Below are positions 18,203-54,012 of a stretch of DNA of 64,000 bases, piece by piece (positions within the stretch are counted from its first letter, which is position 1; every line of letters starts with the position of its first letter). A program made the translations under genes and the position numbers. Source of the DNA: Thalassospira lucentensis. Its GTDB lineage: Bacteria; Pseudomonadota; Alphaproteobacteria; Rhodospirillales; Thalassospiraceae. The stretch spans positions 124,001 through 188,000 of the forward strand of contig NZ_JAATOV010000005.1 of assembly GCF_011806425.1 (NCBI RefSeq), read 5' to 3'. The notes under the pieces were generated by a model. The model saw only the letters and a program-made list of their open reading frames with translations, made no database searches and was not told the origin of the DNA.

Positions 18203-18345
18203 GCTGTGTCCTGTTTTTGGGAATCGTGTTTGACGCAGCATAGTCAGGTCCGTCAGCCTCGGCAAGCGATGCGGGCAACCGGGATGCTTGGCTTTGAACA
18301 ACCACGCTATTTTTGGCGAATGACAGAAAAATTTGCCAAACTCCC

Positions 18346-18375
18346 TTGTGCCATAAGGGCCCTTTGACCTATATA
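18346..18375 (+). promoter_or_regulatory. Possible ssrA promoter
   Basis: TTGTGC and TATATA are separated by 18 nt just before the tmRNA acceptor piece. Both match the sigma-70 boxes only partly. Confidence 0.35.
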
Positions 18376-18720
18376 GGGGCTGTCGGGGCAACCCGACTAT
18401 GGCGTTACACGACTTGGCAGAATAGACATTACGGACCCGGGGGCGGTACCCGGCGGCTCCACCAACTTTCAAACTTTGACTTCGTCCGACTCAGGCGAGG
18501 ATGTTGGGGCCGAAATAGGATCGACGTGTGTAGTAAAAGCCTCTGTTGGCGCTCGGCATGGTACCACCGTTATCGGGCTAATGTTTGTAAATGCAAACGA
18601 CAACAATGCTCCGGTAGCTGTTGCTGCGTAAGCGGCACTAGCACCAAAGCGAAATTCCGGTTGCCGGGAGCGGTAACTTGGTGGGGGACGGGGCACCTAG
18701 CAACAGAACGCCCCACTCTT
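18376..18720 (+). ncRNA. ssrA: tmRNA, circularly permuted two-piece form
   Basis: Rescues stalled ribosomes. The order is permuted, as in alphaproteobacteria: the acceptor piece comes first and ends in CCA at 18462-18464, and the coding piece begins GGGGCCG at 18506. The two would pair through a 7-bp acceptor stem, GGGGCCG with CGGCTCC, with a G-U at the third pair as needed for alanyl-tRNA synthetase. The T-arm CCGGG/CCCGG has a loop without the usual TTC. A GCAA-capped hairpin (18382-18397) lies in the acceptor piece. The 41 bases at 18465-18505 would be removed in processing. The outer ends are estimated. Confidence 0.95.
18593..18631 (+). other. tmRNA proteolysis-tag reading frame
   Basis: The resume codon GCA opens a frame encoding ANDNNAPVAVAA followed by TAA. 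The start AND and the hydrophobic AVAA end match SsrA tags recognised by SspB and ClpX. Confidence 0.93.
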
Positions 18721-51202: not shown

Positions 51203-52753
51203 TCAGGATGCCATGGCGTCCGGTGCGGTTTTTTTGCTTTTCTCGATCAGCTTATTCACCGCCGTTACATAGGCCACGCAAGACGCAACTACGGTGTCGG
51301 TGTCTGATGCGTTGCCAACCACAGTGCGGTCTTCACCGTCAAGTTTGACTGTCACGGTACCTTGGGCGTCGGTTCCCTCAGTCACGGCGTGTACTTGATA
51401 GAGTTTCAGACGCCAGTCATGCGGATAGATTTCCTTGATCGCGTTAAAGGTCGCGTCAATCGGGCCGTCACCGGTGGTTTTGGCGGTTTTGCTCTCGCCG
51501 TTAACATTCAGTTCCAGTTCCGCGGTTTGTGGGCCTTTGGAGCCACAGCTGACGCTCAGGCTAACGAATTTGATGTATTCGTTGTCGCGCATGCCATCAT
51601 CGACCAAGGCGACGATATCGTCGTCATAGACTTCTTTTTTCTTGTCGGCCAATTCCTTGAAGCGCGCAAAGGCGTCTTCAATGGCATTGTCACCCAATTC
51701 GGCAAAGCCCAGCTCTTTGAGCTTTTCTTTAAAGGCATGACGGCCGGAATGTTTGCCCATCACCAAGCTGGATTTGTTCAGGCCGATGCTTTCGGGCTTC
51801 ATGATCTCATAGGTTTCGGAGTTTTTCAGGAAACCGTCTTGGTGAATACCACTTTCGTGGGCAAAGGCATTGGCACCAACGATGGCCTTGTTGGGCTGCA
51901 CCACGAAACCAGAAACCGCCGAGACCAAGCGTGATGCGCTCATGATTTTGGTTGAATCAATGCCAGTTTCATACGGGAAGGCATCATTACGGGTTTTCAA
52001 CGCCATGATCACTTCTTCAAGGGCTGCATTACCAGCGCGTTCGCCCAAACCGTTAATGGTGCATTCGATTTGACGTGCACCCGCATGAACAGCGGCCAAG
52101 GAGTTCGATACAGCCATGCCCAAATCGTTGTGGCAGTGAACAGACAAGATCGCCTTGTCGATGTTCGGCACACGGTTAAACAGCATGGTCATCAGGTCGG
52201 CATACTCGGTCGGAGTGGTATAGCCAACGGTATCTGGGATGTTGATCGTGGTTGCGCCGGCATCAATGGCGGCTTCGACGCAACGGCACAGGAAATCGTG
52301 CTCGGTCCGTGAACCATCTTCTGCCGACCATTCGACATCGTCGGTGAATTTGCGTGCCAAGGTTACGCTTTCAATCACCTTTTCCAGAACGCGTTCTGGT
52401 TCCATCTGCAATTTATATTTCATATGCAGCGGGCTTGTGGAGATAAAGGTATGAATACGCTTGTTTTCAGCAGGCTCAAGCGCCTCAGCAGCGCGTTCAA
52501 TGTCACCCTTGGCCGCACGGGCCAGCGAACAAATCGTCGGGCCTTTGATTTCCTTGGCAATTTCATTGACTGATCGGAAGTCGCCGTTCGATGCGATGGC
52601 AAAGCCAGCTTCGATAACGTCAACTTTCAAATCCGCCAGCGCCTGGGCCACACGCATTTTTTCATCAAGCGTCATCGATGCACCTGGGGACTGTTCCCCA
52701 TCACGCAAGGTGGTGTCAAAAATGATAACGCGATTGTCGTTTGCACTAGCCAT
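51203..52753 (-). CDS. leuA: 2-isopropylmalate synthase
   Basis: A 516-aa enzyme that commits carbon to leucine by condensing acetyl-CoA with 2-oxoisovalerate. Catalytic HMGL-like barrel (about 8-280) with FDTTLRDGEQSPGASM, metal-site HCHNDLGMA and NGLGERAGNAALEE; a subdomain follows (about 290-380). The C-terminal LeuA regulatory domain (about 390-505) confers leucine feedback inhibition. The ATG follows AGGAAA. A Leu-rich leader ORF upstream suggests transcription or translation control by leucyl-tRNA supply as well. Confidence 0.97.
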   Translation of the reverse strand: MASANDNRVIIFDTTLRDGEQSPGASMTLDEKMRVAQALADLKVDVIEAGFAIASNGDFRSVNEIAKEIKGPTICSLARAAKGDIERAAEALEPAENKRIHTFISTSPLHMKYKLQMEPERVLEKVIESVTLARKFTDDVEWSAEDGSRTEHDFLCRCVEAAIDAGATTINIPDTVGYTTPTEYADLMTMLFNRVPNIDKAILSVHCHNDLGMAVSNSLAAVHAGARQIECTINGLGERAGNAALEEVIMALKTRNDAFPYETGIDSTKIMSASRLVSAVSGFVVQPNKAIVGANAFAHESGIHQDGFLKNSETYEIMKPESIGLNKSSLVMGKHSGRHAFKEKLKELGFAELGDNAIEDAFARFKELADKKKEVYDDDIVALVDDGMRDNEYIKFVSLSVSCGSKGPQTAELELNVNGESKTAKTTGDGPIDATFNAIKEIYPHDWRLKLYQVHAVTEGTDAQGTVTVKLDGEDRTVVGNASDTDTVVASCVAYVTAVNKLIEKSKKTAPDAMAS

Positions 52754-52838
52754 TGTCTTGTTTCCTGATCAAACGGGTCTTGCCCGGTATATTTTAATTC
52801 TGTCTGGAAGGAGTGCGGGCCGTCTGGCGCGACTTTTT

Positions 52839-52905
52839 CCCCTGAGCTGCGGCACCGTGATCAACTATTCTTGCGTGATCTGGTCCGTCGTCTTTCGCTC
52901 AGGGG
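52839..52905 (-). promoter_or_regulatory. Long-range stem in leuA leader RNA
   Basis: CCCCTGAGC, which spans the leader peptide's stop codon (52897-52905), is perfectly complementary to GCTCAGGGG (52839-52847) farther down the leader. A ribosome at the stop codon would block this 9-bp stem, while one stalled at the Leu codons would allow it. The classic terminator with a U tract is not obvious; a small CGGG/CCCG hairpin near 52773-52785 is the only later candidate. Confidence 0.5.
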
Positions 52906-53048
52906 CGAGTAAGTCGTAGCGAGCCTAGTAGGGCTGCGAGACCAAGTAGACCGGTAAGGAGGTTTACAGCAGACAGCGCAATGGCGCCCGAAGCAGAGGC
53001 TTCGGCGCGATCGGCAAATGCATTGATGTTGCAATTGTCTGCGGTCAT
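52899..53048 (-). CDS. leuA leader peptide candidate (Leu-rich)
   Basis: A 49-codon ORF upstream of leuA on the same strand, starting at ATG 53048 with GAAGA before it. Its last 25 codons include ten leucines, in the stretch NLLTGLLGLAALLGSLRL. The codons are CTC, CTT, CTA and CTG, with adjacent CTA-CTA. This is the hallmark of amino-acid attenuation leaders. A hairpin with GAAGC/GCTTC at its loop end lies inside the ORF, and its stop codon sits within one arm of a long-range stem. It ends 145 nt before leuA. Another frame over this DNA (52861-53259) is Arg/Ser rich and rejected. Confidence 0.72.
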   Translation of the reverse strand: MTADNCNINAFADRAEASASGAIALSAVNLLTGLLGLAALLGSLRLTRP

Positions 53049-53388
53049 CGGTCTTCATCAAATGGTTTCTAAGCCAGACTGTGCTGGCGACATCCTCAAT
53101 TTCATCGGACCGCGCGTTTAGGTCAAGTAATTTTTGTATCTTTTCGCGGCTTTTTTGAGTGGAATTTAGCGAGGCGGTCGCGGCGATGGCGCGGCGTTGG
53201 TTGGGAAATGGGCTTTCAGCGGGGCTTGGCCTGCGCAACTTCTTCGTCAAATAGTTCAACTATTTGAAAAAGGCGCTGGCTGCTTTTCGCGTTATCAGGT
53301 AGTGGTTTTGCCCTGATTTTAGAACTTGATCGATTTGCTAGGGTGGTATTGCCTACCCTAAGCGCCACGCTCGTCACAGGAATATTCC

Positions 53389-54012
53389 ATGGTCAGTCTG
53401 TCTTTGATCGGGGCCTTTATCCCGACTGCCTTTTTTGTCTCGATCACGCCGGGCATGTGCATGACCCTTGCGCTGACGCTTGGCATGACAATTGGCCTGC
53501 GACGGACTTTGTGGATGATGGCGGGCGAACTGGTCGGGGTGGGGATTGTTGTTGTGGCCTCCGCCCTTGGTGTCGCGGCGGTGATGTTGCAGTACCCGGC
53601 AATCTTTGCGGTGTTTAAGTATATCGGCGGTGCCTATTTGACGTGGCTTGGCATTCAGTTGTGGCTGTCACGCGGGCGCATGGCGATTTCAACCGATGTT
53701 GGCGAGGCCAAGACCGCAACAGCGTTCGGGTTAATGACCCAAGGGTTCATCACGGCCATTGCCAACCCCAAGGGCTGGGCCTTTATGATTTCCTTGCTGC
53801 CGCCCTTCATCAGTTTGGAACATGCAATCGCGCCACAGCTTTCGGTGTTGGTGGCGATTATTTTGATGACCGAGCTGATTTGCATGACGCTCTATGCGAC
53901 GGGCGGGCGTTCCTTGCGCAAGTTTCTGGAAAAAAGCGGCAATGTCCGTATTCTCAACCGCATCGCAGGTACCTTGATGGTCGCTGTTGGTGTCTGGCTT
54001 GCGACCAGCTAG
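53389..54012 (+). CDS. LysE/RhtB family amino-acid exporter
   Basis: A 207-aa inner-membrane protein with six TM helices. Family signature near the N-terminus TPGMCMTLALTLGMTIGLRR and a middle FKYIGGAYLTWLGIQLW; ITAIANPKGWAFMIS in the second half. AGGAA precedes the ATG. LysE-type proteins export amino acids such as lysine, homoserine or leucine. Divergent from the leuA leader, but a functional link is only suggestive. Confidence 0.92.
   Translation: MVSLSLIGAFIPTAFFVSITPGMCMTLALTLGMTIGLRRTLWMMAGELVGVGIVVVASALGVAAVMLQYPAIFAVFKYIGGAYLTWLGIQLWLSRGRMAISTDVGEAKTATAFGLMTQGFITAIANPKGWAFMISLLPPFISLEHAIAPQLSVLVAIILMTELICMTLYATGGRSLRKFLEKSGNVRILNRIAGTLMVAVGVWLATS

Follow-up and report, generated by a model that had tools for sequence, protein, structure and literature searches.

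The leuA locus and its leader

The window, i.e., the whole stretch of 64,000 nucleotides analyzed, carries leuA on its minus strand, preceded by a leader whose open reading frame (ORF) ends 145 nt before the leuA ATG (52753). The features of the locus were as follows:

51203-52753, minus strand: leuA, 2-isopropylmalate synthase, 516 aa (NCBIfam TIGR00973 and other models above cut-off; Pfam HMGL-like and LeuA_dimer)
52762-52765, minus strand: GGAA, part of the leuA Shine-Dalgarno (SD) sequence (AGGAA in 27 of the 28 loci of the genus; L023 has AGGAC)
52806-52821, minus strand: conserved block GGCCCGCACUCCUUCC (GGCCCGCA...UUCC in 28 of 28 genus loci)
52830-52835, minus strand: AAGUCG, directly after B, predicted partner of A'
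52839-52847, minus strand: B, GCUCAGGGG, main-stem right arm, recognized by its complementarity to A
52850-52887, minus strand: predicted internal hairpin between the arms (CGG/CCG, ACC/GGT, GATCA/TGATC)
52897-52905, minus strand: A, CCCCUGAGC, main-stem left arm, in which the leader stop codon lies (complementarity and covariation)
52911-52916, minus strand: A', CGACUU within the last Leu codons, with AAGUCG as predicted partner
52899-53048, minus strand: leader ORF, ATG at 53048, TGA at 52901-52899, 49 codons, product MTADNCNINAFADRAEASASGAIALSAVNLLTGLLGLAALLGSLRLTRP
53098-53126, minus strand: probable leader promoter, TTGACC (53126-53121), 17-nt spacer, GAAATT (53103-53098)

The ORF, on the minus strand, has the 49 codons stated in the preliminary description and, also as stated there, ten Leu codons within 22, two of them CTA CTA in succession; all ten lie within the last 25 codons. 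For Leu richness it ranked first among the 923 window ORFs of 20-80 codons, only one other reaching nine, and CTA accounted for 4 of its 10 Leu codons vs. 3.3% of the 1387 Leu codons in the long open frames of the window. The peptide displayed no match to NCBIfam or Pfam at their thresholds. Arm A (DNA CCCCTGAGC, 52905-52897), where the stop codon lies, is perfectly complementary to arm B (DNA GCTCAGGGG, 52847-52839) across a loop of 49 nt, thus confirming the repeat that had been reported around the stop codon. Such a position, within a Watson-Crick stem of at least 9 pairs, was found for the stop codons of 6 of the 923 short ORFs, the leader ORF among them.

The predicted fold also contained, within 52887-52850, the internal hairpin that had been proposed between the two arms. 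The end of B (GG) and the next AA (52840-52837) can alternatively pair with UUCC (52809-52806), which predicted folds place either with the leuA SD or with B, and the helices A:B and B:UUCC were predicted to be mutually exclusive both in locus L002 and in the consensus of 28 genus sequences. Fold z-scores reached -2.3 for the 131-nt core and -3.3 for the 317-nt leader. No match at gathering score was obtained for the leader in Rfam, T-boxes and riboswitches included, nor for ten relatives, in which the single match was at chance level (22.5 bits vs. 45).

Upstream of the leader, the promoter-like arrangement AAAAATTACTTGACC-N17-(GAAATT, GACATT, or AAGATT) was present in 28 of 28 genus loci; a scan with the sigma-70 consensus did not report this conserved pair. 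A LysE-type exporter gene (Pfam PF01810; 53389-54012, plus strand) is divergent from the leader and matched NCBIfam models for homoserine, threonine, and leucine efflux below their cut-offs. Elsewhere in the window, an ordinary two-piece alphaproteobacterial tmRNA gene (Rfam RF01849) was found at 18342-18717 on the plus strand.

Conservation in the genus and in the class

The family was represented in the genome collection by one genus, in which 28 of 29 genomes gave a leuA match; leuA of genome G020 is broken into two parts, and the second of these (locus L029) was left out. In the 28 aligned loci the leader end, both stem arms, and the GGCCCGCA...UUCC block were nearly invariant and the stretch between the arms varied; the arms, CUUA, and the reading frame were kept in all of them, and the ORF start was conserved, with lengths of 48-52 codons, in 27. 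A hairpin between the arms, of differing sequence, was predicted for the eight genus members that were folded. Only 5-8 Leu codons were present in the leaders of six loci (L023-L028). One of these, L023 (genome G025), kept the stem and CUUA, with a different ORF start, six Leu codons, and AGGAC instead of AGGAA as SD. A genus-level sequence pattern, run against 289 genomes of the class, found the window's own genome only, and a relaxed pattern revealed a wider family.

Matches to leuA were obtained in 131 of 150 genomes of the order and, at a stricter cut-off, in 122 of 241 genomes of the class; part of these matches provided, together with the genus, 213 upstream regions, 140 of which were extracted in addition to the loci delivered with the matches. 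A strict detector (CUUA-N4-CYYY-stop plus a stem holding the stop codon) was positive in 148 of the 213 (120 of 185 outside the genus), leaving 65 without the element by this rule, and gave no hits in five dinucleotide-shuffled sets or on the reverse strand. Pairing of the stop codon is built into this detector; therefore, the fairest figures are the covariation described below and the 148 upstreams that also had the stem among the 153 with a strict site. A loose detector was positive in 157 of the 213 upstreams, as compared to 8, 10, 11, 8, and 3 in five shuffled sets and 10 on the reverse strand. A recognizable leuA start was present in 144 of the 157, and 110 of these were non-redundant, although a few may be detector errors (L161, L166). 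Alignment A1 retained 101 of the 110, after exclusion of six for length and of L152, L161, and L166 as doubtful.

The ten-pair stem was 94% paired in the 101 aligned sequences and seven of its ten pairs had changed on both sides, a covariation above that of all 500 shuffles and all slid versions. UGA, UAG, and UAA stops all occurred with matching stem partners (e.g., L062, L064, and L038). CUUA was nearly invariant in this alignment. Conservation of the longer CGACUUA (A1 columns 7-13), and above all of CUUA, extended to sequences with a weak or displaced pairing partner, which indicates that pairing does not fully explain it.

Leu codons were concentrated in the leader frame (25% vs. 12 and 8% in the other two frames of the 110 leaders). 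Counting back from the stop codon, Leu was found at codon -4 in 99% of these leaders, a value that the detector largely imposes, at -6 in 92% (101 of 110), at -10 to -13 in 31-42%, and in no more than 9% from -23 on. The preliminary description had named lack of conservation of the Leu run or the stem as a result that would speak against it; the comparison gave the opposite, both being kept in much of the Alphaproteobacteria and the stem covarying.

Scanning the genome collection with the pattern gave at least 119 matches; among the matches listed, 114 of 119 were directly upstream of leuA (LeuA motif no more than 420 nt downstream) and the other five ended at a contig edge. Among the 80 named matches listed, one carried the name of another phylum (metagenome bin L289) and the rest those of Alphaproteobacteria or Proteobacteria. 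In the window's genome, covariance model R1 found the site before leuA with an E-value of 1.5e-8, the next site having 0.755. At E ≤0.001 it matched 77 of 348 Pseudomonadota genomes, 76 of the same class, with one site each. Sixty of the 77 sites were fetched for context and 59 of them precede leuA; the single fetched site outside the class does not. The gene downstream encodes a LeuA with DTTLRDGEQ or a close motif for 47 of the 60 sites and the other LeuA type (LSTDxRDGNQ) for 12, all from family f15, perhaps Sphingomonadaceae (loci L368, L389, L390, L393, L395, L396, and L398-L403). In this family the enzyme type thus changed, and the leader either remained in place or was transferred. None of the seven genomes listed for family f190 (G486, G494, G498, G512, G519, G544, G559) had a covariance-model match; either the element is absent from this part of the class or it has changed too much for the model.

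Eleven of the 60 fetched sites did not fit CUUA-N4-N4-stop. In L374, L384, L392, L397, L404, L368, L393, and L396 the leader frame stays open across the stem (CCCCUGG or CCCUUGG) and closes within a few codons beyond it; a stop codon in the stem is thus usual, not required, and the idea that it is obligatory was dropped.

Predicted pairing of the leader end with the leuA ribosome-binding site

The leader end was predicted to pair with its own downstream region more stably than with those of other species (mean -10.7 vs. -8.5 kcal; z -10.6; 0 of 5000 permutations), and Watson-Crick runs between the two followed the same trend (z 8.4; 6.6 for the CUUAGG class, n = 49, and 2.8 for the others, n = 61), these z values not being probabilities, since the species are related and relatedness inflates such tests. 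For the median species, 21% of foreign regions still paired better than its own. In 50 of the 110 relatives, the best duplex included three or more nucleotides of the leuA SD. Strong duplexes covering the SD numbered 43 vs. 31.9 after swapping (maximum 40 in 30 permutations); as swapped duplexes also often cover the SD, part of this pairing is generic. The position of the partner in this second helix varied strongly among the aligned relatives.

Predicted SD accessibility increased from 0.275 to 0.443 when the leader end was masked, and only to 0.324 with an equal mask placed upstream; chimeric downstream regions also rose on masking (from 0.36 to 0.45; own vs. chimera, P = 0.01). When a 30-nt ribosome was moved along the leaders, predicted SD opening, averaged over the 110 relatives, was largest with the ribosomal A site at codons -7 to -11 and had disappeared by -22. 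It tracked Leu frequency (Spearman 0.55, P = 0.018, over 18 neighboring, non-independent positions). Similar SD opening was predicted for a ribosome at the stop codon and for one at -4 (0.47 vs. 0.48), so that only dwell time could discriminate between the two situations.

The predicted pairing in the window is different, A' being paired with AAGUCG and not with the leuA SD. The predicted partner of UUCC (52809-52806) is GGAA of the SD in the free fold and GGAA at B (52840-52837) with a ribosome at codon -4; in the 28-member consensus fold, a hairpin at the place of B:UUCC appeared, as read by eye, only with the leader end masked. Predicted SD opening in L002 went from 0.27 free to 0.72 with the ribosome at -4 and 0.67 at -9, and was unchanged at -10 to -20; the leuA start region of this locus (52755-52749) was paired with 52985-52979 both in the free and in the stalled state. 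Mean opening in the genus ranged from 0.21 to 0.43 over codons -2 to -20 vs. 0.27 free, falling below the free value at -6, and these genus values depend on the length folded. At -4 the opening of the single loci rose in 27 of the 28, by as little as 0.02, and fell in L026. A weak, uneven, and length-dependent opening, together with the paired start region, makes a two-step relay in the genus a thinly supported hypothesis.

Mode of control and relation to known leaders

In 52700-53400 a single terminator site was found, on the plus strand (shuffles average 1.1), and therefore none for leuA; this agrees with the earlier remark that no standard U-tract terminator is visible, as the minus strand of this region has none. 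A U-tract followed the main stem in 4 of the 157 detected sites and in 4 of the 119 pattern matches listed, and a terminator-like site preceded leuA in 5 of the 110 relatives. The stretch from B to leuA measured 61.5 nt on average, with 27% C vs. 24% G. A simple terminator reading was thus rejected, there being none for leuA in the window and few in relatives, and Rho-dependent termination is not favored given the short stretch and its C to G content. In L163 (genome G186) the main stem reaches 21 pairs with eight T behind it, which resembles an intrinsic terminator, and no more than two of the last 25 leader codons are for Leu.

The element is very probably a leucine-responsive leader of leuA. 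We consider it moderately likely that this leader senses leucine through the translating ribosome and exerts its effect chiefly on translation of leuA. The computation shows conservation, covariation of the stem, a place before leuA, and Leu enrichment in frame; we infer that the leader is translated and senses leucine, that control is exerted on translation, and that the switch has the following sign. With ample leucine, the leader would be translated to its stop codon and the ribosome would depart, after which the leader end would fold with the downstream RNA, A with B and A' with its partner, in a conformation that would conceal the leuA ribosome-binding site. When charged leucyl-tRNA is scarce, the ribosome would stop on the last Leu codons, covering A' and A; the concealing structure could then not form and leuA would be translated. 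The leader probably lets the cell make LeuA mainly when leucine is short. In many relatives the Leu codons themselves would be the anti-ribosome-binding-site (e.g., CUUCGACUUAGGUG vs. CCACCUGAGUCGAAGG in L102). In the window's genus the effect would pass through a relay, in which formation of A:B would leave UUCC free to pair with the leuA SD and covering of A would let B take up UUCC.

Control of translation by a stall at the end of the leader is the best supported mode because terminators are rare and leuA follows after a short stretch that is not rich in C. The suspicion, raised in the preliminary description, of a non-classical mechanism, possibly control of leuA translation, fits with the few terminators and with a leader end that pairs with the ribosome-binding-site region better than expected in relatives. 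This translational mode has two weak points: a ribosome halted further up, on one of the earlier Leu codons, would leave A' uncovered, and the predicted effect on the SD is small in the window's genus.

Transcription attenuation of the classical sign, which we consider unlikely, would have the ribosome stall on the upstream Leu codons so that A:B forms as antiterminator; with leucine present, a ribosome at the stop codon would block A:B, and transcription would end at a weak intrinsic or Rho-dependent stop before leuA. The list of parts is the same as in classical leu leaders, the location of the stop codon in A would allow a terminating ribosome to mask this arm, a ribosome stalled as far up as -22, the limit of the Leu codons, would not cover A, and most of the genomes are known here by sequence only. 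Against this stand the scarcity of terminators and of U-tracts after B reported above and the short B-to-leuA stretch with C barely above G; moreover, the eight T of L163 would make its main stem the OFF structure. Still less probable is the binding of a protein or other factor to the conserved RNA to control leuA; the Leu richness would then follow from the sequence needed for pairing, since CCUUCGACUUA is translated as Leu. Conservation of CUUA and CGACUUA beyond pairing, also where the second helix is weak, would fit such a factor, and a protein is preferred, in the part of their report drawn on here, by the authors of the actinobacterial LEU study (PMC1262725). However, Leu is enriched well outside the pairing stretch, as at codons -10 to -13, and the reading frame and start codon are retained, as is the stop, unless the ORF extends to another one nearby. 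That a Leu-rich ORF and an inverted repeat coincide by chance and have no function is barely credible: stop codons in comparable stems do occur in a few of the short ORFs of the window, but conservation, covariation, and the position upstream of leuA all argue against it.

In translational attenuators of the erm and cat type, a ribosome stalled on the leader by a drug frees the ribosome-binding site of the next gene. In the leuA leader, as proposed here, the stall would come from lack of charged tRNA instead. With regard to classical attenuators, the locus presents a leader rich in codons for the end product and, by prediction, mutually exclusive helices, and lacks the intrinsic terminator. 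The enteric leu leader (leuL; see PMC6123439) shares with it a Leu-rich leader, alternative hairpins, and an expected response to leucyl-tRNA; unlike leuL, the leader studied here has no U-tract terminator and its Leu codons extend as far as codon -4. Leaders of ilv genes are known in Alphaproteobacteria and are described, in the portions of PMC4117421 and PMC1273637 considered, as acting by transcription attenuation; they too have branched-chain codons in a leader ORF before a biosynthetic gene, and differ in the gene and in this mode of control, the likeness being one of description and not of sequence.

The nearest relative found in print was the LEU element that precedes leuA in Actinobacteria (Seliverstov et al., 2005; PMC1262725), which, according to the sections of that paper used here, has likewise a leader ORF with a Leu run before leuA and no terminator. 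Pairing of Leu codons with the leuA SD box is predicted for LEU and, here, in many relatives; this base stem of LEU is not found in the window, where A' pairs with AAGUCG. LEU has a pseudoknot and the leader described here a stem holding the stop codon; the two are likened by description, not by sequence. Mutations of the Leu codons are reported in the same sections to have had no effect, and a protein is suggested by the authors; that result in a related case counts against the translational mode proposed for the leuA leader. No paper on an alphaproteobacterial leuA leader was found in the literature searched; an earlier mention is possible, most likely in Vitreschak et al. (2004).

Going further, we propose tentatively, with confidence slightly short of even, an unnamed and widespread family of alphaproteobacterial leaders in which the Leu codons would be both sensor and leuA anti-ribosome-binding-site, with the stop codon usually in the switch helix, two LeuA types downstream, and an output rewired to a two-step relay in the window's genus. 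If this is right, none of the family libraries searched for RNA and protein (Rfam, Pfam, and NCBIfam) includes the leuA switch; the covariance model, with at most one site per genome in the sample searched, offers a concrete annotation target, and amino acid attenuation at the level of translation would become testable by simple codon swaps. The finding also bears on the actinobacterial LEU element, whose mechanism was left open by its authors in the part of PMC1262725 drawn on. For the Alphaproteobacteria, it would mean that a common RNA switch acts at one of the main points where this large class regulates its synthesis of leucine.
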